64,000 nt of DNA from Puniceicoccus vermicola (GCF_014230055.1 NZ_JACHVA010000053.1:124001-188000), one strand, 5' to 3'; positions 18,522 through 52,766 are shown, counted from the first letter of the stretch. Notes: generated by a model not told the origin, from the letters alone. Numbers and translations are program-made.

Positions 18522-19055
18522 TTAGCTTGGAAAGAAGGGTGTCTTTAATTCGCTGATTTTGGTTTCTTGGGTGACGACCATATTGTCAGGATCGGCGCAA
18601 TCTGCGCGGAGCCCGGCAAATCCTTCGCTATGCTCATCGAAGAGGCTCCAGACTAGTCGATCATCCGTCTCTGGAATTGGAAGCGAACGAATTTCTTCAC
18701 GGGTGAAAAAGCCGAAGCGTCCTTCTTCCATATCGGGAGGTAGAGTTTGAAGTTTGCGGCGACAGTGAAAGAGAAACATCAGCCAGTGGCGCTCCCCTTC
18801 GTAGTTCTTCTCCGATACGTATCCAAATAGATGAAGATCCTCATCGGAAATGGTCAGTCCGGCCTCTTCCTGAGTCTCTCTCCGTGCGCATTCGAAGGGA
18901 GATTCTCCGATCATCATGTCGAGTTTGCCTCCAATGGGGCTCCATTTGCCTTGGTTAGGGGCTCGGTTCCGATGGAGGAGGAGAAAGCGATCTTCCTCGT
19001 CTCGGAGGAAAACCAGGGTGCTGATTCGAAAAGGTAGGTCCTTCAATGGGTTCAT
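18522..19055 (-). CDS. Nudix hydrolase
   Basis: A 177-residue protein with a Nudix box, reading GGKLDMMIGESPFECARRE followed by TQEEAGL. The catalytic REXXEE-type core (RETQEEAG) is intact. The loop between GG and the first Glu has two more residues than the classic GX5E pattern; I have seen the same WSPIGGKL..GESP style in other Nudix proteins of this size. The family hydrolyses nucleoside diphosphates linked to X; the substrate here is unknown. No signal peptide. It is divergent from the pilus cluster (142-base gap). Confidence 0.88.
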   Translation of the reverse strand: MNPLKDLPFRISTLVFLRDEEDRFLLLHRNRAPNQGKWSPIGGKLDMMIGESPFECARRETQEEAGLTISDEDLHLFGYVSEKNYEGERHWLMFLFHCRRKLQTLPPDMEEGRFGFFTREEIRSLPIPETDDRLVWSLFDEHSEGFAGLRADCADPDNMVVTQETKISELKTPFFPS

Positions 19056-19197: not shown

Positions 19198-19824
19198 ATG
19201 GCTTCTGCATTGAAATCCCCTTTGCTACTGCTTCTGACATTCATTTCTTCGATTTCGGCTCTCGCTCAAAATGCGCCGGAAATCGAAGTGTCGAATGTTA
19301 GATTCGATCGTGGTCCCGACGACTGGATGATGGCAACTGTCCAGATCTCGCCTGAACGCAATCCTTTGCCGGATGCGCGGGATGAGGACTACATGGATGA
19401 TGTCCTCCTCACTTTGACTCTTTGCTATAAGGTGAAGAATCCAGCCGAGGGGCAGTCTCCGCTCTCTTTTTACCGGTCAACGGTGCGTATGGTCTCGATC
19501 GAGCAATCGAAGCGTTACTCTCTTTATTTCTTCCTCCCCGGTGTGATTCGGGATCGGGATGAGTTGGACGTGGAGCCTTTTGCCTGGATGGTTGAGATGG
19601 AAGTATCTGGCACAAAAGTCGGAATGTCTCTTGATCAGGCTGGCGGAGAGGTCCAGAAGGATAAGGAAGGCTATGATAACTTCCTGTCGCAGGCGAGTTC
19701 AGGTGTCCAAGAAAACGAAGGGCTCCTAGTCCCGGTTTACTTGGCCCCGAATCATATCGTCGATAGCTCTCGGCTTCGATACACAGAAGTTCCTGCTTTT
19801 TACCGCTTCGAGCCTGAAAATTAG
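19198..19824 (+). CDS. Amuc_1102-like pilus-associated protein
   Basis: A 208-residue secreted protein: signal peptide (residues about 1-23, ending ALAQN) then a beta-rich domain, e.g. EIEVSNVRFDRGPDDWMMATVQIS. I assign it by position and architecture: it precedes PilM-, Amuc_1100-, Amuc_1099- and secretin-like genes in the order of the Akkermansia Amuc_1102-1098 block, where the first member is reported to have an immunoglobulin-like or archaeal-pilin-like fold. Direct similarity was not computed. The likely location is periplasm or outer face. It reads in the same direction as the next gene, with a 62-base gap that may hold a further promoter. Confidence 0.6.
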   Translation: MASALKSPLLLLLTFISSISALAQNAPEIEVSNVRFDRGPDDWMMATVQISPERNPLPDARDEDYMDDVLLTLTLCYKVKNPAEGQSPLSFYRSTVRMVSIEQSKRYSLYFFLPGVIRDRDELDVEPFAWMVEMEVSGTKVGMSLDQAGGEVQKDKEGYDNFLSQASSGVQENEGLLVPVYLAPNHIVDSSRLRYTEVPAFYRFEPEN

Positions 19825-19843
19825 TTCAGGCAAGATTCGAAGC

Positions 19844-19873
19844 TTGATTGTCCCTATTCGCGTTACTTATATA
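19844..19873 (+). promoter_or_regulatory. Candidate promoter ahead of pilM
   Basis: TTGATT (19844-19849), an 18-base spacer and TATATA (19868-19873) end 13 bases before the pilM ATG, so a transcript from here would have a very short leader. Confidence 0.35.
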
Positions 19874-19886
19874 GCGTTTCTATTGT

Positions 19887-21557
19887 ATGAGCTCCACTAA
19901 AATTTCTATCCTCAACTGCGGCGCAAGTCAGTTTGCGTTCGGGGTGTTCTCAGTCGAGGGATCGGAACCGACGATGGAGCGTCTGGTTACCCGCAGTCTC
20001 AATTACGACTTTTCTGAAGAAGAACAATGGCTTAGCGCGACCCTCTCTGGTTTGCGTGAATCCGTCAGTGCCGATAAGATTTCTGGCGAGGTTCAGGTCG
20101 TTCTTCCCGGATTCCTGCTTCTGACGAAAACTTTGCGAATTGCCCATGTCGAAGGAGGCAAGCAGGCGCAGATGATCGCCTACGAAGCGCAGCAAAATAT
20201 TCCCTATCAGCTTTCGGATTTAAATTGGAGCTATCAGGTTCTTTCCGATGATGGAATCGAGACGGAAGTGCTCTTTATCGGAATTCGCTCATCCATCTGC
20301 CGGCGGTTCTGCGACGAGATTTCGAAACTTGGTTTTCAGACCGTTTCCGTCAATGCCTCGACGATTCTCGATTACAACGCATTCCAACTGACGGATCCTT
20401 CCGGTGATTCGGAAGCGCTTGTCGTGAATATTGGAGCGCGGGCGTCCAATCTGACCTTTATTCAAGAGTCCGGGTTTTTTGTCCGGAACATTAATCTCGG
20501 CGGAAATGCCCTGACTCAAAGTCTCGCCGACGCCTTAGGCAAAAGTTTTGCGGATGCGGAACGCATCAAGGTGAATTATTTCACCTCTGAGCGGGCCGAC
20601 CACTCTTCTACTGAGATTATCGACAAAGCGACCAACAGTTTCATGCGGCGCCTGTCTCAGGAAATCACGCGGTCGATCGTTAATTTCCGCCAGCAGAAGA
20701 AAGGGGCCGCTCCCAAGCGCATCCTCTTGACGGGACGGAGCGCACTGATTCCTGGCCTGACCGATTTCCTGAGCGAATCTCAGAGGGTAGAGGTTTCATT
20801 TTTCCAACCCGGCAAATTCATCCAGCTCGGTTCGAATGCGAATGTCGCACCGGACTCGATGGAAATCTTCCAAGCCTCCGAATTGATCGGGGAAGCGGCC
20901 AAGTCGCTCGTGCCGAATGGCGTCGGTGTTGATTTGTTGCCGGAAGAACTCCGCAAGGAGATGAGCTTCAAGCGGAAGCGACCTTGGATTTTGGCTGCAG
21001 CCGTGGTCTTGGCGGCCGCTCCGGTTCCGTTTTTCCTTCAAACTCGGGAAACTGTAGAGCAATACGAGACGGCTGAGCAGGAGATCCAGCAAGAGCTCCC
21101 TGGGCGTCAGTCTGAGTATCAGCAAATCGAAAATCTAATCGAGAAAATCGAGGCTGCTGAAATTCAGGTGCATCGGTTTGACGACCTCGTGAATGCCAAG
21201 TCGAATTGGATCCAATTTTTCTCAGGACTCCAGGGTGCCTTATTTAGCATTGGTGACGTTTGGCTCGACGATCTGAAGGTGGACCGCATGGAAGTCGGCG
21301 GTCAGGTTCGGTATCAGCTGAATGTCGACGGGCGTCTTCTCGTCCGCCAAAAAGATTCGGATGCTGTGGTGGCAATGGCCGAGATCGATGAAGAGCTTCT
21401 GTCAAACCGGATTCGGACACTTTCAGAAGTCTTCACTTCATCCCGATTTATTTCCGAACGCATTTCCATGCGTATCGATTTTCAGGCGATTCAGGGAGGA
21501 GAGCCTTTGCTCCCCTTTGAATTTGTATTTTCTATCGACCCCAAACGGCCTCTCTAA
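19887..21557 (+). CDS. pilM: Type IV pilus assembly protein, PilM-PilN-type fusion (Amuc_1101-like)
   Basis: A 556-residue protein. Residues 1 to about 355 form an actin/FtsA-like PilM domain (N-terminal ISILNCGASQFAFGVF; VVNIGARASNLTFIQESG; ILLTGRSALIPGLTDFLSE). After KRKRPW comes a transmembrane helix (about residues 366-385), a heptad-rich coiled coil (QEIQQELPGRQSEYQQIENL) and a PilN-like C-terminal domain. In standard pilus systems PilM is cytoplasmic and binds the N-terminus of the inner-membrane PilN; here both appear on one chain. It is followed two bases after its stop by the Amuc_1100-like gene. The pilus role follows from the secretin in the same run. Confidence 0.82.
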   Translation: MSSTKISILNCGASQFAFGVFSVEGSEPTMERLVTRSLNYDFSEEEQWLSATLSGLRESVSADKISGEVQVVLPGFLLLTKTLRIAHVEGGKQAQMIAYEAQQNIPYQLSDLNWSYQVLSDDGIETEVLFIGIRSSICRRFCDEISKLGFQTVSVNASTILDYNAFQLTDPSGDSEALVVNIGARASNLTFIQESGFFVRNINLGGNALTQSLADALGKSFADAERIKVNYFTSERADHSSTEIIDKATNSFMRRLSQEITRSIVNFRQQKKGAAPKRILLTGRSALIPGLTDFLSESQRVEVSFFQPGKFIQLGSNANVAPDSMEIFQASELIGEAAKSLVPNGVGVDLLPEELRKEMSFKRKRPWILAAAVVLAAAPVPFFLQTRETVEQYETAEQEIQQELPGRQSEYQQIENLIEKIEAAEIQVHRFDDLVNAKSNWIQFFSGLQGALFSIGDVWLDDLKVDRMEVGGQVRYQLNVDGRLLVRQKDSDAVVAMAEIDEELLSNRIRTLSEVFTSSRFISERISMRIDFQAIQGGEPLLPFEFVFSIDPKRPL

Positions 21558-21559
21558 CC

Positions 21560-22597
21560 ATGGGATTTTTCAAGCGATATCCAATTTTCTGTGTCGTACT
21601 GGTTTTGCTGGTGCTTGCACTGGGCGCGGGCGTTTACCTCGTGATCAGTCAACAGGCCAAAGTCGAAGATGCGAAGGAGAGTTACGAAAACCAAGTTAGA
21701 CGCTTACAAGAAGTTTCACGGGGTGTTTTGTATAATCCCGAAACCGGTCAACGTGTCGCCCCGAACAAGGCGAACCGGGAACTCCTTCAAGTTCGACTGG
21801 ATCAGGTCGATGGCGACTTGGAGCGAATTCGGAGTGGTATGGTTGCTCGAACCGACAGAATTCTAAACGACTCTGCCGACGAATTCACCTTCTTACCGAA
21901 ATTACAGTCTTTCATCGCTTCGCTCAAGGCTTTGGCAGCCAAGAATCATGTAATTCTCCAATCCGACGAGGCATTCGGGTTTGCCAAATACGCGACTCAG
22001 GCGGCTCAACCGAAGAAAGAAATGATCCCGATGCTGAATCGGCAACGCCAAGTGCTGGATTATATTCTGAAGCAATTGATGGCTTCAGAACCGGTTTCAA
22101 TTTTGGCCGTCGAGCGAGAATTTGTCGAAAGACCGCCAGAGGAAGAGAATTCCCGAAATCGCGGTCGCAATAGCAATACCAAGGAAGATGATGTTTTCAC
22201 AATTCAAGAGTTGGTGACAGCACGGTCGAACGAGTTTATTGAAACTTCCGCATTCCGAATCGTATTCACGGGTAGGACGAATGCTCTCCGCGAATTCCTC
22301 AATCGCCTCGGAAAATTTGAGTTACCGTTGATCGTCCGAAGTGTTGAGGTGGTACCAGCCACAGAATCGGATGTTCCGAAGCAAGCCGAAGCGCCAAAGC
22401 AAAATAGTTCGGAAAATGCGCTTTTCGCATTATTCGGAGGCGGCGATGAAGAGGAGGCAGAAGTTGAGGTAACTGAAGAGACTGATCCGAATAAGAAACC
22501 GGTGATTACCGAAACTGAATCCAAATTCACGGTCGTGATTGAATATGTTGAGGTTGATATCGACTCCGACGATGAGACAGAGGAGGCAGGATCGTGA
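21560..22597 (+). CDS. Amuc_1100-like (PilO-like) pilus alignment protein
   Basis: A 345-residue inner-membrane protein: short cytoplasmic start, one transmembrane helix (about residues 8-29), coiled coil (ISQQAKVEDAKESYENQV), then a periplasmic domain interrupted by acidic and Asn/Arg-rich low-complexity stretches (ENSRNRGRNSNTKEDD; GGGDEEEAEVEVTEETD). The segment FGFAKYATQAAQP resembles what I remember of Akkermansia Amuc_1100, and position in the cluster agrees. PilO/GspM-type proteins join PilN to the secretin. The next gene's GTG overlaps this stop by four bases (GTGA). Confidence 0.72.
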   Translation: MGFFKRYPIFCVVLVLLVLALGAGVYLVISQQAKVEDAKESYENQVRRLQEVSRGVLYNPETGQRVAPNKANRELLQVRLDQVDGDLERIRSGMVARTDRILNDSADEFTFLPKLQSFIASLKALAAKNHVILQSDEAFGFAKYATQAAQPKKEMIPMLNRQRQVLDYILKQLMASEPVSILAVEREFVERPPEEENSRNRGRNSNTKEDDVFTIQELVTARSNEFIETSAFRIVFTGRTNALREFLNRLGKFELPLIVRSVEVVPATESDVPKQAEAPKQNSSENALFALFGGGDEEEAEVEVTEETDPNKKPVITETESKFTVVIEYVEVDIDSDDETEEAGS

Positions 22598-23517
22598 AGC
22601 ATATTGAGAAGATAATTTTCCTGGTCGTTCTGATCGTTGTAGCGGGTCTTTCGGCGTGGGTGTTCATGGGAGACGCGAAAGCGCCGAATGCCTCCCAAGA
22701 CATTCCCCCAGCTGGCGGCTCTTTCCCCTTAGAAGAATACACAGGCATCCCCCCCCTTCCTCAGGTCAATTGGCCGGAGCCCATGCCTCAGGATTCGGAA
22801 GGTAAGTGGCTCTACCGCGTCTTCACTCCGCCTGTTTTGTACATTGTCGATGGAGCCTTTGTTCCTGTACGTCCGGTGGATCCGGTGCCCGATGAGCCCG
22901 AGCCTGAGCCGGAACCATTCGGGGTCGCTCTCACCGATATAACTCGGAACATGTATCGACTTCAGCTCGACGCGATCTATGAAACGAAGTTAAATGATGT
23001 CGATTCGGCAGTGCTTTCTTTCGAGAACGTCTATGCCACTCAGACTGAGCGTCCTACGGTAACTCTGAAAAAGGGTGAGACCGATGAACATTTCCAGTTC
23101 CGCGTTGATGATATTGAGCGTAAAGAAAAGCGAATAGGTGGCGGTCTCGAGCGTGAACATGTCGCCACGATTACAGATCTAAAAACAGGAAAAACCGTAC
23201 TCCTTTCTGATCGCGATACTCTCTACGAGGAGGGCGTGACCCTCACCTTCGAATCGACGGTGTCACCGGGCCAGACGGTGACGTTGAAGTCTGTGGGTGA
23301 AACCTTCGAGATGAACGACGCTACTTACACACTCTCCGAAATCAATTTAGATAATTCCTCTGTCCAATTGGTGAAAGAATCTGAAACTCTGGATGTTCCG
23401 GAGGTGAAAACGCTTACCCCTGAAACAGTGGAGCCCGTGACGGAAACACCGTCACCACAGGCGACACAACCGAATACGGAATCCGGCAGCTCGGATTTTG
23501 ATCAACTGTTCAACTAA
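22594..23517 (+). CDS. Amuc_1099-like pilus cluster protein (PilP-like position)
   Basis: A 307-residue protein starting at GTG, preceded by a strong AGGAGG eight bases upstream. One N-terminal transmembrane helix (about residues 5-25), a Pro/Glu-rich linker (DPVPDEPEPEPEPFG), then a beta-rich periplasmic region and a Thr/Pro-rich tail. By order it corresponds to Amuc_1099, and functionally to the PilP/GspC slot that touches the secretin. No direct motif confirms this. It overlaps the preceding gene by four bases. Confidence 0.6.
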   Translation: MKHIEKIIFLVVLIVVAGLSAWVFMGDAKAPNASQDIPPAGGSFPLEEYTGIPPLPQVNWPEPMPQDSEGKWLYRVFTPPVLYIVDGAFVPVRPVDPVPDEPEPEPEPFGVALTDITRNMYRLQLDAIYETKLNDVDSAVLSFENVYATQTERPTVTLKKGETDEHFQFRVDDIERKEKRIGGGLEREHVATITDLKTGKTVLLSDRDTLYEEGVTLTFESTVSPGQTVTLKSVGETFEMNDATYTLSEINLDNSSVQLVKESETLDVPEVKTLTPETVEPVTETPSPQATQPNTESGSSDFDQLFN

Positions 23518-23575
23518 GATTGATTGCAAAAAATATAATTCTATCTGCGATTATTACTTTAAATTATACTTATTG

Positions 23576-26500
23576 ATGAAGACCCTGAATAACCTACTCC
23601 GAGCAGCGATGACCTCGGCCGTATTGAGTGCTGCACTCGTCAGCGCTCCAGTTGCATACGCCGCGCAGGACGCGGGGATCAACCCGACGGAGAAAGTCGG
23701 GTTGATGGCCTCCGCTCTCAGCCTGAAAGATCAAGGGGACTATGCCGCTGCCTTCGAGAAGGCGACCCTTCTCCGCGAGATCGCTCCGAATGATCCATCG
23801 GTTAACCGCTTGTACAACGAGCTTGTCGAAGAGATGGAAGCTGAAGGCATTCCTTTTGATTTAATCGCAACCGACGAGTCGGGCAGCGATGAATCGACAG
23901 TAGCCCCAACAGCTACAACGGAAGAAGCGGCTCCGGTCGTATCTCCGGACGCGAACGTCAAGGCCAGCATCTCTCAAGCTCAAAAACTAGCTGCCGAAGG
24001 AAGCTATCCTGAGGCGATTACTCTGCTCAATCAGGCGAAAGCCAATTCCACGGATCCCGCCACTCAGGCGCAGATCGATGATCTCATTGCAAGTTATATT
24101 CTCGATCAGGAATCCAGCTATGTAGAAACGGCGATGGAAAATTCCCGCGAGGATATGGCTCGTGCTGAAGAACTCGCTGATGAAGGCCGATATTCTGCAG
24201 CTTACGAGCTTTTGGACGCATCGATTAATCGTCTTCCTGTCAGCACCGGAACCGAGGACCTCATTGAAACCTTGGAGAACACCAAGAAAGAAATGCTACT
24301 TGAGCAAGCCGAAGAGTTGGCTCAGAAGGGCGAAGGTAACGATGCCATGGCCGCTTTTCAAGAATACCAGCGTGATCCTAGCACCGACGCGAGTATTCAG
24401 GACCAAGCGAAAGATGTGCAGAAAATGGTGAAGAACCCTTACGCTTACAACATTCGCGAAATTAGCCCTGGGTTCGTTGCCGAATACCAAGAAGTTCAAG
24501 ATCTGCTCGTCAAGGGGCGCGCACAATTTGTCAACGGCGACTACGAAGGTGCCCGTCAAACTTTTGCTCAGGTCGAAACAATCAGTCCGGAAAATGTTGA
24601 AGCTAAAGCATTTCTTTATGAAATCGCGGAGCGTTCGACCAACAGCGGTCATATTGATCGCACAAAAACTCGTGCTGAAATGTTGAATCAAGTCAGTCGT
24701 GCTTGGCAGCAACCCCGAGTCTATGTGGATGATCGTGGACCGGGCACTGGGGGCGTTGAAACTACTAGTCCTGTTCTGAAAAAGCTAGAAACGATCGTGA
24801 TTCCCCGCGTTACCTTCACCGGAACCAGCCTTTCTCGCGCAGTCCAGTCTCTTTCCGAAATGTCGGAAGAGTTCGATCGCAACGCTACCTCCGCGGAAAC
24901 ACGCGGCGTAAACATGGTCGTATCGGGTCAAGGGGGCACAGATCGCCAGGTGAACTTCTCTGTTCGCAACCTTTCTCTCCTCCGCATCCTCGACATTGTT
25001 GGCCAGCAGACGGGTTACCAATGGGATGTGGTTGATCAAGTCGTTGAGTTTCAACCGAGCGACCAGAAAGGGGGGAACAATCGGCTTCAACGGGCGATCA
25101 TTCCGATTTCCAAAGGAACGCTCGACCTCATCCTCGACATTCAGTCCGCTTCGGGAGGAGGAAGCAGTTCGGTAGCTGACGATCCTTTCGCCGCTCCAAC
25201 TGGACCTTCCGGCCCGGCTACCGATGATCGTCAAGATGCTTTGGTGAACTTCTTTGAAGCATCCGGTATTGAGTTTCGTAATATCACCGGTGCTAGCATC
25301 GTCAATCGTGGATCCCGACTTTTGGTGAATCAGACTTCGAGGAATATCGAAGAAATTCGCCAGACCCTCCGCGAACTAGACATCACCGATCAGGTGGAAA
25401 TCGAAGCCAAGTTCATGGAAGTTGTTCAAGGAAATCTTGACGAATTGGCTTTCGAGTGGAATGCCGGCAACCAAGGGAATGCAGTAATTACTCGTTCTCA
25501 ATCTACAAGCACGACTAGATCAAACGGAAGTAATCGATCTTACACGGGCACTTCAAGCGGATCGAATACGGTTAATACCATTGGGCCTCCCCCTACTTCT
25601 TCTTTCATTGGTCAAGATTCAACAACCTACAATTCGACGGTTGGAAACAATTCGAGCTTCAATTCGACCACATCATCTTTCGAATCGCCGCAATTTGACT
25701 CATATGGCAACCCCAGAAGAGATCCAACCAAGGGGTACAACGGTAGTATGAATACTTTGGCCTCGATTTTCGGCACAACGGAAACCTCCGAACAGGGGAC
25801 CATCAGCTCTCCATCTGGAAATACACCTTTCTCGGTTGCTCCGGGAACGCCAGCGAATGCATTGGACCTGGGTGCTGATATTATCAGCAACTTTTTTACC
25901 CAAGGTGTGATCGGAAACTTCGATATCTCTATGGTTATGCGAGCCGTTTCCCGAATGGAAGGTTCGGACCTTTTGTCCGCTCCTCGTGTGACTGTCATGT
26001 CTGGTAAGTCGGCGAACATCGTGGTCGCTCAAGAGTTCATTTACCCGACCTCTTATGGGGAGCCAACTGTAACCGCTTCTTCTGGTAGTTCTGATGATGG
26101 TGGTGGCGGCGGCGGCGGTGCGGTAGCACTCGCTTCGGGTGTTCCAGAAGATTTCGAAACCCGGAATCTGGGCGTCGAACTTACTGTGACCCCAACTGTA
26201 GAGCCGAATGATAAGATTAATCTCGCTCTTCAACCCCGGGTTACCGAGTTCGAAGGATATGTTTCTTACGGCGGTCCTAACATCGCTTTGACGGACCAGA
26301 CCTCTGTGCAGTCGCCCTCCGGTTATTTCCAACCAATCTTCTCGACCCGCACCGTCGAAACGGAAGTAACGGTTTTCGATGGGGCGACAGTGGTCCTGGG
26401 TGGATTAACCCGGGAAGAAGTTCAAGAGTACAAGCAAAAGATTCCGATTCTTGGTGACATTCCATTAATTGGTCGTCTCTTCCGTTCAGAAGGGGAAACC

Positions 26501-26677
26501 TCACAGAAGCGTAATCTGATTATCTTCGTCACTGCGAATCTGATCAGTCCCGGGGGCTCACCAGCCAACCAGTCATTTCAAGGCACTGAGTCGAATTCGC
26601 TCTTCCAGAATCCGACTGTGATCAGTCCCGGAGGGATTCTCTCCCGCGACAAACAAAAACAACCAGTCGAAGAGTAA
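23576..26677 (+). CDS. pilQ: Type IV pilus/type II secretion secretin with N-terminal TPR region (PilQ-like)
   Basis: A 1033-residue outer-membrane secretin starting at ATG 23576 with a signal peptide ending near AYAAQD. Residues about 30-270 hold TPR-like helical repeats (ALSLKDQGDYAAAFEKA; ELADEGRYSAAYELLD). Next come N-domains (VNFSVRNLSLLRILDIVGQQTG; then ITGASIVNRGSRLLVNQTS) and a Ser/Asn/Thr-rich insert (about 642-722). The secretin pore domain carries a poly-Gly loop near 845 and the C-terminal signature VVLGGLTREE..KIPILGDIPLIGRLF. An AT-rich stretch of about 55 bases precedes the start. A rho-independent terminator follows. Confidence 0.92.
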   Translation: MKTLNNLLRAAMTSAVLSAALVSAPVAYAAQDAGINPTEKVGLMASALSLKDQGDYAAAFEKATLLREIAPNDPSVNRLYNELVEEMEAEGIPFDLIATDESGSDESTVAPTATTEEAAPVVSPDANVKASISQAQKLAAEGSYPEAITLLNQAKANSTDPATQAQIDDLIASYILDQESSYVETAMENSREDMARAEELADEGRYSAAYELLDASINRLPVSTGTEDLIETLENTKKEMLLEQAEELAQKGEGNDAMAAFQEYQRDPSTDASIQDQAKDVQKMVKNPYAYNIREISPGFVAEYQEVQDLLVKGRAQFVNGDYEGARQTFAQVETISPENVEAKAFLYEIAERSTNSGHIDRTKTRAEMLNQVSRAWQQPRVYVDDRGPGTGGVETTSPVLKKLETIVIPRVTFTGTSLSRAVQSLSEMSEEFDRNATSAETRGVNMVVSGQGGTDRQVNFSVRNLSLLRILDIVGQQTGYQWDVVDQVVEFQPSDQKGGNNRLQRAIIPISKGTLDLILDIQSASGGGSSSVADDPFAAPTGPSGPATDDRQDALVNFFEASGIEFRNITGASIVNRGSRLLVNQTSRNIEEIRQTLRELDITDQVEIEAKFMEVVQGNLDELAFEWNAGNQGNAVITRSQSTSTTRSNGSNRSYTGTSSGSNTVNTIGPPPTSSFIGQDSTTYNSTVGNNSSFNSTTSSFESPQFDSYGNPRRDPTKGYNGSMNTLASIFGTTETSEQGTISSPSGNTPFSVAPGTPANALDLGADIISNFFTQGVIGNFDISMVMRAVSRMEGSDLLSAPRVTVMSGKSANIVVAQEFIYPTSYGEPTVTASSGSSDDGGGGGGGAVALASGVPEDFETRNLGVELTVTPTVEPNDKINLALQPRVTEFEGYVSYGGPNIALTDQTSVQSPSGYFQPIFSTRTVETEVTVFDGATVVLGGLTREEVQEYKQKIPILGDIPLIGRLFRSEGETSQKRNLIIFVTANLISPGGSPANQSFQGTESNSLFQNPTVISPGGILSRDKQKQPVEE

Positions 26678-26712
26678 CCTCTCTGGCCCAAGAGGCTATT
26701 CACAACTTTACA

Positions 26713-26745
26713 GGCGGCCACTCAATGAGAGTGGTCGCCTTTTTA
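26713..26745 (+). terminator. Intrinsic terminator of the pilus cluster
   Basis: An 11-base-pair stem (GGCGGCCACTC at 26713-26723 with GAGTGGTCGCC at 26729-26739, one G-U pair, five-base loop) is followed by TTTTTATT. It sits 36 bases past the secretin stop. Confidence 0.9.
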
Positions 26746-26831: not shown

Positions 26832-28154
26832 ATGGCTACTCGTACGAAAGTCCGCTTTGTTCTCGTTTCTCTCTGGGTGGCGACCGTGGCTGCGGCTTTT
26901 ACTGCGGGGCAACGGATGACAGATTCTTCATCCCGAGCGGAGGCCGATGATGAATCATCTATTCAAGCCGTCGGAGCGGATTCGAAGGCACCCACTAACA
27001 CTGTGGGTCGTGAAATCGACTTGGCGTCGGGTTTGCAGCCAATAGAGGGCGAAATCGGAGGCAACGAACCCCTTCTGTCTCAGGTGTTGAAGGGGAGTCG
27101 TGACTCAGAAGATTTACGATCAGCTACACTCGAGGCGGAATTGCTCGGCCCCGAAGATGCCCGGTATTGGGCGGAATCCTATTTGCGGATGCCTCCTGAC
27201 CCTGGAAGAAATCGCTTACTTTCTGTTTTGTTGGGATCGCTTGCGGAGAGCGCTCCATTGGAGGCACTCCAGATGGCCCAAGGAATCGGATCTGTTTCGG
27301 CGAGCGAACAGGCGCGCCGACGTATTTTGGAATCGTGGGCTAGGCGAGATCCTCAAGCCGCTCTCACCTGGTTGGAGGAAAATCGAGGTTCAATTCCTGG
27401 CAGGATGCATTCAGGGAGATTGGAATCTTGGATGGAAGGATATGCTGAAACCGATCCTGGCGGTGCCTTTGCGTATGTGGTGGGGATGAGTGAACAATCG
27501 AATTCTGATCGCTGGTTGAAGCGTCGGCTGATCGAGAGTGTTGTCGAAGCCCAAGTAGCGGGCGATCAATTAGAAGAAGCATTGGCTTCACTGCAAAGTC
27601 TTCCTCAAGGCTTGTTGCGTTCAGAGGCATTACAGGAGTTTTATTCGGAGTGGGCAAAACAGGATCCAGCCGGAGCTGCGGAACATTTTCTTTCGAATCG
27701 GGAGGAGGGAAGTGAACGAGCAGCGGCGGGTCTTATCCGAGAATGGGCGTCGTCAGATCCAGAATCTGCCGCCGGATTTGTTTCGACATTGGAAGCGACT
27801 GATCCCGCTTACCAAGTCGCCATCTCTTCTCTGATCGAACGGTGGTCACGCTACGATCTCGAAGGCCCGGCGCAGTGGTTGAATGAACTTCCGCCTTCGG
27901 AGGGAATCGACCGCGCAGTCGCCGTATTTTCGGTTCGCGCCTCGGAAGAAGACCCAGAAGGAGCAATGACCTGGGCGGCCTCTATTGCCAGCGAACAAAC
28001 CCGTAGCCGAGTTATGCAGAGGGTTGCGGCTAATTGGAAAGAAACGGATCCGGACGGTTTGGAAGAGTTTATCGAATCGAGCGAGTTTGATGAAGAAACT
28101 GCAAAACAGCTGAGAGAAGCAAGAGGCCGCCCCCGTTGGAGAGGCCCCTATTGA
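26832..28154 (+). CDS. Secreted/anchored alpha-helical repeat protein
   Basis: A 440-residue protein with an N-terminal hydrophobic anchor (about residues 9-25) followed by an acidic linker. The remainder is a series of about 35-residue helical repeats with a recurring W-x4-DP-x-AA pattern: SWARRDPQAALTWL, GYAETDPGGAFAYV, EWAKQDPAGAAEHF, EWASSDPESAAGFV, RWSRYDLEGPAQWL, NWKETDPDGLEEFI. This resembles TPR/HEAT-like scaffolds for protein binding. I know no function. It follows the pilus terminator, so it is probably a separate unit. Confidence 0.72.
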   Translation: MATRTKVRFVLVSLWVATVAAAFTAGQRMTDSSSRAEADDESSIQAVGADSKAPTNTVGREIDLASGLQPIEGEIGGNEPLLSQVLKGSRDSEDLRSATLEAELLGPEDARYWAESYLRMPPDPGRNRLLSVLLGSLAESAPLEALQMAQGIGSVSASEQARRRILESWARRDPQAALTWLEENRGSIPGRMHSGRLESWMEGYAETDPGGAFAYVVGMSEQSNSDRWLKRRLIESVVEAQVAGDQLEEALASLQSLPQGLLRSEALQEFYSEWAKQDPAGAAEHFLSNREEGSERAAAGLIREWASSDPESAAGFVSTLEATDPAYQVAISSLIERWSRYDLEGPAQWLNELPPSEGIDRAVAVFSVRASEEDPEGAMTWAASIASEQTRSRVMQRVAANWKETDPDGLEEFIESSEFDEETAKQLREARGRPRWRGPY

Positions 28155-31137: not shown

Positions 31138-32283
31138 TCAGTCCAGTCCTCCGACGACGCCAGCCATGTTGAAGATCGGGAGAAACATGGCCATGACGAT
31201 GGTTCCGATAATTCCGCCGAGAAAAACGATGATTAGAGGTTCCATCAAATCCGTGAGAGAGCCGACCGTATTCTCGATCTCGACGTCATAGAAGTCGGAA
31301 ACCTTCATTAGCATTCCATCGACATTACCGGTTTCCTCACCCGCTTTCGCCATGTGTTTCACCATAGATGGAAAATAGGGATCGCCAGCGAGGATGTCGG
31401 AAATCTGGGCTCCTTCGCTCACCGCTTTCTGGATCCTTGTGATCGAGCTTTCAATGAAGGTGTTGTCGCTCGCTGAAGAGGTGATGTCGAGACTCTGAAG
31501 GATCGGGACTCCACTGCGCATGAGAATGGAGTAGGTGCGGCAAAATCGAGAGAGGGCAATCTTCCGTGACAAGCTTCCCATGATCGGAACCTTGCTGACG
31601 AGCACATCGCGAAATCGTCGTCCCCGCGGGGTCTTTATAAACTTTTTCAGTGCAATGAATGCGATGACCAATCCGATGAGGATCGCAAAGATCCACGATT
31701 TCAGGAAATCCGAGGCAGAAATCAGCATCCGGGTCAGGAGAGGGAGCTCTTTGCCGAAGCTGTCAAACATCCCTGCGAAAACCGGAATCACGAAAATGAG
31801 AAGGACGTTGACGAGAGCGATCGCGATCAGAATCACCGCTACCGGATAAGTCATTGCGCTTTTCACTTTCTTCTGCAGGCGCACGGTATCGTCGAAATAG
31901 GTTGCCGTTTTACTAAGGATCTCGGCCAAATTTCCGCTCGCTTCTCCCGCTTCGGCCATCGACCGAAAGAGATTGGGGAAGGCATTGGGGAATTTGCTGC
32001 AGGCCTCGGAGAAAGCCGTTCCTCCGGATACGTCGCTACGCACTTCTCGAATCACCACCTTGAAATAGGCGTTCTCCGTCTGTTCGTAGAGAGCCTCCAT
32101 TGCCGTGACCAGAGGCAAGCCAGCTTCGAGCATCGAAGAAAGCTGTTCCGTGAACATGGCAACATCGCCCAGAGGAATCTTCTTCTTGCGGGCCTTTTTC
32201 TCGATGCTCTTCTGTTTGGCAAGGCGCTGATTCTCCCAGAAGGAAGGTTTGGACTTTGCTGAAGTCGAAGAGAGGGTTGCCAT
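31138..32283 (-). CDS. pilC: Type IV pilus assembly / type II secretion inner-membrane protein
   Basis: A 381-residue GspF/PilC family protein, the inner-membrane platform that couples assembly ATPases to pilin insertion. It has two T2SF domains: residues about 40-165 (FTEQLSSMLEAGLPLVTAMEAL; LFRSMAEAGEASGNLAEIL) and 240-365 (FCRTYSILMRSGVPILQSL; MAKAGEETGNVDGML), with three transmembrane regions (about 150-175, 195-215, 350-370). The ATPases PilB/PilT and the pilins are not in the window. It most likely serves the same machine as the 19198-26677 cluster. First gene of the pilC-DUF721-crtY operon. Confidence 0.93.
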   Translation of the reverse strand: MATLSSTSAKSKPSFWENQRLAKQKSIEKKARKKKIPLGDVAMFTEQLSSMLEAGLPLVTAMEALYEQTENAYFKVVIREVRSDVSGGTAFSEACSKFPNAFPNLFRSMAEAGEASGNLAEILSKTATYFDDTVRLQKKVKSAMTYPVAVILIAIALVNVLLIFVIPVFAGMFDSFGKELPLLTRMLISASDFLKSWIFAILIGLVIAFIALKKFIKTPRGRRFRDVLVSKVPIMGSLSRKIALSRFCRTYSILMRSGVPILQSLDITSSASDNTFIESSITRIQKAVSEGAQISDILAGDPYFPSMVKHMAKAGEETGNVDGMLMKVSDFYDVEIENTVGSLTDLMEPLIIVFLGGIIGTIVMAMFLPIFNMAGVVGGLD

Positions 32284-51842: not shown

Positions 51843-52766
51843 CTATTCAAAGAGCTTTTTGTGCAACCCGGTCCCGACCGAAAGCCCCTTCCAGTCACTC
51901 CCCCGCAATGGGTGAGGCCTTCGCGCCCGCTTCCCATCGGGTTCATTCTCGAGGAACTTGTTCACAAAGTCCTCCGACCCAAGCACCATCCCGTCCGAAA
52001 AATAACGAACCCGGCACCGCAAAACCACTGAAAGAGGCAACTTCCCTTTCTCCTCCCGCAAAACCCGCACCGCTTCTTCGTGGGAAATAGACGCTTTCCC
52101 CTCTTTCTCACCATCGCCAGCCCCATACAAAGTCTGCCGATACCCCGCCAGATCCTTATCGACAACCGAAAGCCCGGCTCGAGCCAAGCGTCCTCCCCCA
52201 AGAGCCTCCGCATATCCGCAAAAGCGGTAATCCTTAGGATCCGAAACCAGCCCGGCCCGAACCGCATTCAGGTCAATATAGGCCGCTACCGTCCGTAGCG
52301 CCCAACGATCCCCTTCGACCAAAACACTCTTAAAACGAGCCGACCAAAGCGGCCCAAACCGATCTCGTGACCGGTTAAACCAAAGCGTAAAACGAAGCTT
52401 CAAAGTCCGCATAAACTCCGAAACATCATGCATCCGACGAGTCAGCTCCTTGCGCAACTCCCTCCCATCAAGAAAGTTATCCTTCAAATGCCCCTCCAAA
52501 ACCTCCGCAGGCATTGGATTCCAGGGAGTAGGCTTAGGATACAACTTCCGATACCGACGAACCAACTCCACATCCGAAACCTCCGTCCCTGCCGGTGGTA
52601 CCTCCACCAAAATATGGAAATGGTTCTTCATCACCGCATAAGTAACCACCCGAACCCCAGAAAACTCAGCAACCTGCCAGATCATCTTTCGCAAAACCTC
52701 CCTCTCCCGATCCCCGAAGAAAGCCTCTCCATTCACTGTCCGGCTCATCAGATGATGATAAGACAA
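51843..52766 (-). CDS. REP-associated tyrosine transposase-like (Y1_Tnp, RAYT) protein
   Basis: A 307-residue HUH-type protein. The HUH pair is VMKNHFHILVEVP, and the region AAYIDLNAVRAGLVSDPKDYRFCGYAEALGGG is the common Y1_Tnp/RAYT C-terminal block. RAYTs mobilise or maintain REP palindromes and are usually single-copy domesticated genes. There is no second transposase gene and there are no clear terminal inverted repeats, so it is not a complete insertion sequence. Complete by length, with no frameshift. It lies upstream of trpE on the same strand. Confidence 0.85.
   Translation of the reverse strand: MSYHHLMSRTVNGEAFFGDREREVLRKMIWQVAEFSGVRVVTYAVMKNHFHILVEVPPAGTEVSDVELVRRYRKLYPKPTPWNPMPAEVLEGHLKDNFLDGRELRKELTRRMHDVSEFMRTLKLRFTLWFNRSRDRFGPLWSARFKSVLVEGDRWALRTVAAYIDLNAVRAGLVSDPKDYRFCGYAEALGGGRLARAGLSVVDKDLAGYRQTLYGAGDGEKEGKASISHEEAVRVLREEKGKLPLSVVLRCRVRYFSDGMVLGSEDFVNKFLENEPDGKRARRPHPLRGSDWKGLSVGTGLHKKLFE

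Follow-up and report, generated by a model that had tools for sequence, protein, structure and literature searches.

Amuc_1100 of Akkermansia muciniphila is a widely studied host-active protein that has been assigned to the outer membrane or to pili. The gene block to which it belongs, Amuc_1098–Amuc_1102, has been published in Akkermansia (PMC5332112, PMC4960237) and, under the name of MUL2, has been reported across Verrucomicrobiales and, more weakly, in Chthoniobacterales, in a paper the main text of which does not mention Opitutales (PMC13174399). Here, these genes, the PilMNOPQ systems of type IVa pili (e.g., of Pseudomonas, Myxococcus, and Thermus), and the type II secretion system (T2SS) are compared with a block found in a 64,000-nucleotide stretch of DNA (the window) from Puniceicoccus vermicola, whose genome assembly spans 5.2 Mb and 143 contigs. 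An earlier note on this DNA had described an Akkermansia-type pilus block in a non-Akkermansia context. The genome does belong to Opitutales, but this context is less surprising than the note implied: in the genome index, Akkermansia falls into the same class as the window genome and into another order, and conservation of the block in Verrucomicrobiales has been published (PMC13174399). The homologies, the breadth within the phylum, the taxonomy-following tree, and the motor genes beside CoaE–Rho, all detailed below, suggest that the block most likely provides the alignment complex, together with the secretin, for the phylum's own type IVa pilus; this reading, with an architecture specific to Verrucomicrobiota, is given a probability of roughly 0.75.

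The block (19198–26677) comprises five collinear ORFs on the plus strand with a strong terminator at the end. They encode a secreted beta-rich protein resembling Amuc_1102 (19198–19824, 208 aa; assigned by profiles, synteny, and the N-terminus), a predicted PilM–PilN fusion resembling Amuc_1101 (19887–21557, 556 aa; NF045709, PF11104, 3jc8, and a motif), an Amuc_1100-like protein in the PilO position (21560–22597, 345 aa; NF038287 and fold), an Amuc_1099-like protein in the PilP position (22594–23517, 307 aa; profile–profile comparison and fold), and an Amuc_1098-like, TPR-containing outer-membrane secretin (23573–26677, 1034 aa; NF042912 and PF00263). The intrinsic terminator closing the block (26712–26740, plus strand) has a 12-pair stem with eight GC pairs, followed by TTTTT. 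The genes are separated by 62 bp, 2 bp, a 4-bp overlap (22594–22597), and 55 bp; the collinear genes and the terminator are thus as the earlier note had them, but its “overlaps” reduce to a single true one. The secretin starts with the ATG at 23573; a TTG at 23498 was rejected, since from there the ORF would run into the preceding gene. Directly upstream of the block lies a divergent NUDIX hydrolase gene (18522–19055, minus strand), a stable neighbor found at this place in most Opitutales loci (L034–L050).

In single-sequence searches, three of the five proteins matched NCBIfam models, i.e., those of the Amuc_1101 family (NF045709, 1.3e-76), the Amuc_1100 family (NF038287, 8.2e-23), and the Amuc_1098 family (NF042912, 1.1e-126). 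All three scores are below the curated equivalog cut-offs (258.8 vs. 650, 81.3 vs. 180, and 423.9 vs. 750, respectively); hence, the window proteins are homologs that fall outside the curated equivalog families. The proteins in the 1102 and 1099 positions did not match the NCBIfam models of their families, and single-sequence searches of NCBIfam and Pfam (for the 1102-position protein, also of PDB) returned nothing useful for them. Pairwise BLAST against Akkermansia gave no match for these two and a weak one for the 1100 protein. The sample used for profiles covered regions of at most 18 kb surrounding each Amuc_1100 match in 19 genomes of the same genus or order, 20 of the same class, and 20 of the same phylum; these 59 loci and the window make up 60 loci. 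Iterated profiles detected the 1101, 1100, 1099, and 1098 genes in all 60 loci and the 1102 gene in 51; the matches occupied collinear positions with few exceptions.

When order-only profiles were compared with class-only ones, each gene matched its own counterpart with a probability of 98.9–100% (e.g., 98.9% and E = 1.5e-16 for 1102, 99.6% and 1.6e-23 for 1099, and 3.7e-42 for 1100). The only off-diagonal match, a weak one between 1100 and the C-terminus of 1101, is as expected if the pair represents PilO and PilN. As the members of both groups were collected by iterated searches, the profiles depend in part on each other; conserved position provides the independent check. In the locus of an A. 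muciniphila-type genome (L056), all five block proteins matched the NCBIfam Amuc models above the cut-off, with the 1102 protein matching 7dsz at 6e-145 and the 1100 protein matching 6lad/6kny at 1e-183. Judging by profiles and position, all five genes of the window block are homologous, in order, to A. muciniphila Amuc_1102-1101-1100-1099-1098: the families, the order, and the orientation are the same at about 20–32% protein identity. This bears out the observation of the earlier note, three genes being recognized by NCBIfam HMMs and the 1102 and 1099 positions, which BLAST misses, by one-to-one profile matches.

The first product (19198–19824), a putative periplasmic or surface accessory, carries a Sec-type signal peptide ending in SALAQ. 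Its similarity to Amuc_1102 was found by profile–profile comparison, by synteny, and by a profile of Opitutales 1102 proteins plus those of other classes of the phylum: with all Verrucomicrobiales left out, 7dsz (Amuc_1102) was the clear first PDB match at 2.1e-14. The Opitutales-only profile reached 7dsz only at E = 0.62, in second place behind a chance match. The 1102-position gene went undetected in 9 of the 60 loci harboring the other four genes (L038, L041, L046, L047, L062, L072, L081, L082, and L091; the L081 locus is cut close to a contig end), suggesting that it may be dispensable or fast-evolving.

In the second product (19887–21557), an actin-like PilM domain is followed by a VDLLP docking motif, a single transmembrane segment (TM; residues ~367–385), and a periplasmic domain in the PilN position. 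The PilM domain was recognized by PilM_2 (PF11104) in the window protein (2.2e-18) and in 34 of 34 relatives, and the M. xanthus PilM structure 3jc8 matched at 2.8e-18. A motif of the docking class occurs at the PilM–TM junction of 41 of the 60 relatives, vs. 0.2 expected from shuffled sequences; in A. muciniphila, it is degenerate (NIDLEP). For comparison, the start of Thermus PilN, as encoded by a cloning primer, is MIRLNLLP (PMC6325625). Among the 34 relatives, Pfam recognized PilN (PF05137) in one and T2SSL in two. As far as can be told from sequence, this protein is a PilM–PilN fusion which has kept the PilN docking motif.

The third product (21560–22597) displays similarity to Amuc_1100 both by HMM and by fold. 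In a Foldseek search with its predicted model (mean pLDDT 65, higher in the core), ten Amuc_1100 chains came on top, followed by PilO of M. xanthus and P. aeruginosa; VIA-align gave a Z of 19.2 for Amuc_1100 (6lad/6kny/6laf), 9.9 for PilO (2rjz), and 6.9 for GspL/XcpY. The protein consists of a short cytoplasmic N-terminus, a single TM, a long helix, and a ferredoxin-like core. Throughout the Amuc_1100 family, a hydrophobic segment (hydropathy of at least 1.6 in 58 of 60) leads into the long helix, and a short N-terminus, hydrophobic segment, and long helix constitute the topology described for PilO (PMC5805733). The depositors of 6kny label the removed part of Amuc_1100 a transmembrane region. 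PilO was not recognized in the 1100 proteins by the Pfam search. The fold and the topology lend support to the proposal of the earlier note that Amuc_1100 was originally a pilus alignment protein; the likeness of the five-gene set to the envelope-spanning core of a type IV pilus machine suggests that it is an inner-membrane pilus part by origin, and the family presumably resides in the inner membrane. A review reports, as a personal communication, Amuc_1100 on the pili themselves (PMC10688800), which counts against this reading of the block.

The product in the PilP position (22594–23517) has an N-terminal TM, a proline-rich linker, and beta domains. The structure that its model, which is of middling quality, matches best is 3jc8_Pa, the PilP chain in the M. 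xanthus machine, at a Z of 7.2, which falls short of a clear match; the next match, an unrelated one, has a Z of 5.0. Residues ~138–210 of the model are apparently inserted. Foldseek by itself returned nothing significant for the 1099 model, and PilP was not among the Pfam matches of the 1099 proteins. With moderate confidence, the modeled protein can be regarded as PilP-like. The last product (23573–26677) matches Secretin (PF00263) at 9.3e-38 and TIGR02515 (PilQ) at 3.4e-34, the latter below the curated PilQ cut-off, and also scores with GspD (9e-43); Amuc_1098 has likewise been described as a TPR-secretin (PMC4960237).

At E 0.001, 262 of the 337 genomes from the phylum yielded a match to the Amuc_1100 family. 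Some of the weak matches may be due to chance, as one unrelated control genome yielded a match below the cut-off; the count also misses some genomes, since two Amuc_1100-negative genomes of the same order (G134 and G298) show a match to the block-type secretin at ~1e-81, broken by an internal stop in one of the two. In the 1101 tree (root not inferred), the order forms one clade (SH-aLRT 100) and the families are followed. This tree and the 262 genomes, with the said uncertainty of weak matches, speak for the view of the earlier note that the machine is ancestral to the phylum. Horizontal transfer of the block from Akkermansia was set aside because the tree groups it with its own order and family. 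A contig search with the window protein alone, in which only Opitutales and unnamed Verrucomicrobia came up, placed Opitutales MAGs (UBA4506, with 82% for 1101) and members of Coraliomargarita/Puniceicoccaceae closest among named relatives. PilT was detected in 323 of the 337 genomes, and 9 of the 14 genomes lacking it also lack an Amuc_1100 match (Fisher p 0.0007, uncorrected for relatedness). Two f8/g33 genomes, probably Methylacidiphilales, were searched and displayed no secretin, PilT, or block secretin; the absence of the block secretin there agrees with PMC13174399. Three small MAGs with the genus code of A. muciniphila, g29 (G051, G069, and G193; loci L064, L065, and L070), carry a strongly diverged block, with Amuc_1100 matches of E ~1e-22 to 1e-33 vs. 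the usual ~1e-90; two secretins appear to be present at L070.

In P. vermicola, genes for the rest of a pilus machine lie outside the block. Contig C40 carries PilB-PilT-PilB-PilC beside CoaE and Rho; the genome also encodes other PilT-like ATPases and a single prepilin peptidase, as well as three GspF/PilC proteins; prepilin-type N-termini number 54. Its three secretins belong to the block, to a T2SS cluster on C118, and to a second PilMNOPQ-like locus on the same contig as the window and upstream of it (C53:62671–69059; L112:4672–11058). In this second set, PilM, PilN, and PilO are unfused and are accompanied by a small secreted protein and by a PilQ-like secretin of canonical type that contains STN domains (TIGR02515, 5e-68); the set occurs in 39 of the 337 genomes, almost only in Opitutales. 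A third PilC/GspF platform gene (31138–32283, minus strand) lies 4.5 kb downstream of the block, with 35% identity to the C40 PilC and no adjoining ATPase.

The block in the window is followed by 26832–28154 and then TatC, not by CoaE–Rho. Outside Opitutales, CoaE or Rho lies 3' of the block in 29 of 40 loci, with Akkermansia and deeper lineages among them, vs. none of the 20 Opitutales loci, so the lack of this neighbor is a lineage trait and not a core one. In all seven Opitutales loci examined, CoaE adjoins the PilB–PilT cluster, as does Rho (unlabeled in one); here CoaE–Rho precedes PilB–PilT, usually with a second PilB and PilC. A. muciniphila has PilB-PilB-PilC away from the block and only two secretins. 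These gene orders suggest that the block, CoaE–Rho, and motors once shared an older common neighborhood, but the three occurred together in no genome examined; motors directly after Rho were looked for in 12 loci where the block precedes CoaE–Rho, and none were seen.

If the block operates as a pilus machine, its parts would be arranged as follows. The PilM half of the fusion would be cytoplasmic and dock on the PilB/PilT ATPases, while the PilN half would span the inner membrane and pair with the PilO counterpart (21560–22597); the PilP counterpart (22594–23517) would bridge to the secretin (23573–26677), corresponding to PilQ. The motors and platform would act in trans from C40, along with the single prepilin peptidase and the many prepilins. 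These parts would assemble into one machine forming a pilus. With the type IVa PilMNOPQ systems, the block shares the PilM domain, the PilN motif, the PilO fold, the PilP-like match, the secretin, and the M-N-O-P-Q order. It departs from them in the fusion of PilM with PilN, in what looks like a beta domain inserted into the PilP-like protein, in the TPR region at the N-terminal end of the secretin, in an additional secreted protein (1102) encoded ahead of the set, and in motors that are not encoded next to it. The T2SS (GspL/M/C/D) shares with it a GspL-related fold and the secretin domain, whereas the PilM and PilO-type proteins set the block apart.

The T2SS likeness, i.e., the GspD score of the secretin and the resemblance of 1100 to GspL/XcpY, could be taken to mean that the block is a part of a type II-like secretion system. 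This is very improbable: a T2SS set that includes a secretin, an ATPase, GspF, and pseudopilins of its own is encoded separately in the genome, leaving no need for the block to fill that role; moreover, the actin-like domain is that of PilM and not of GspL, PilO outscores GspL, and no T2SS family was found in the window 1099 or 1100 proteins. A glycan-capture or uptake apparatus (MUL2) built from borrowed type IV pilus parts, devoid of a dynamic pilus and with 1102 as the binder, would fit the name of mucin utilization locus given to the block in A. muciniphila and its tie to attachment to fucose-rich glycans in marine Akkermansiaceae (PMC13174399). Still, the block is phylum-wide, reaching beyond polymer-degrading gut lineages, PilT is present in 323 of 337 genomes, and the PilM-PilN-PilO-PilP order and the motif are kept, which renders this explanation unlikely; an attachment pilus would reconcile it with a pilus function.

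The second set raises a different doubt. Since such a locus exists here and in most Opitutales, the motors might serve it, so that the block would be a phylum-old pilus core whose motors in Opitutales have been taken over and which now does something else. The more canonical PilQ of the C53 set and the presence of C53-type sets in 35 of the sampled genomes (the present one and those of its genus and order) are in line with such a takeover; same-order genomes with no match to the second set (e.g., G001, G085, G210, G149, and G175) nevertheless keep Amuc_1100 and PilT, and the takeover is an unlikely explanation as well. 

The present analysis adds to the published picture the extension to Opitutales and the breadth across the phylum, the motif of the PilM–PilN fusion, the placement of Amuc_1100 with PilO from an independent lineage, and the link of CoaE–Rho to the motors. 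The Opitutales extension and the last three points were not found in the literature, of which subscription journals were thinly covered, and priority is not claimed. An even chance is given to a broader proposal, that of a phylum-old type IVa architecture with PilM and PilN in one protein, an insert in PilP, 1102 as an extra core part, and Amuc_1100 as an inner-membrane PilO. Were the latter correct, the reported host effects of Amuc_1100 would come from released or recombinant protein and not from a surface-exposed pilus subunit, and its native location, exposure, and the reason for its conservation would need re-examination. The presence of the block may also be used to recognize type IV pili in Verrucomicrobiota, including cases such as this one, where two of the five genes lack a match to curated models. 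Elsewhere in the window, an ORF of a Y1/IS200-like (RAYT-type) transposase was noted at 51843–52766 (minus strand); several copies occur in the genome (L111, L113, and L115), and one RAYT-type copy adjoins a PilB-like gene on C127.
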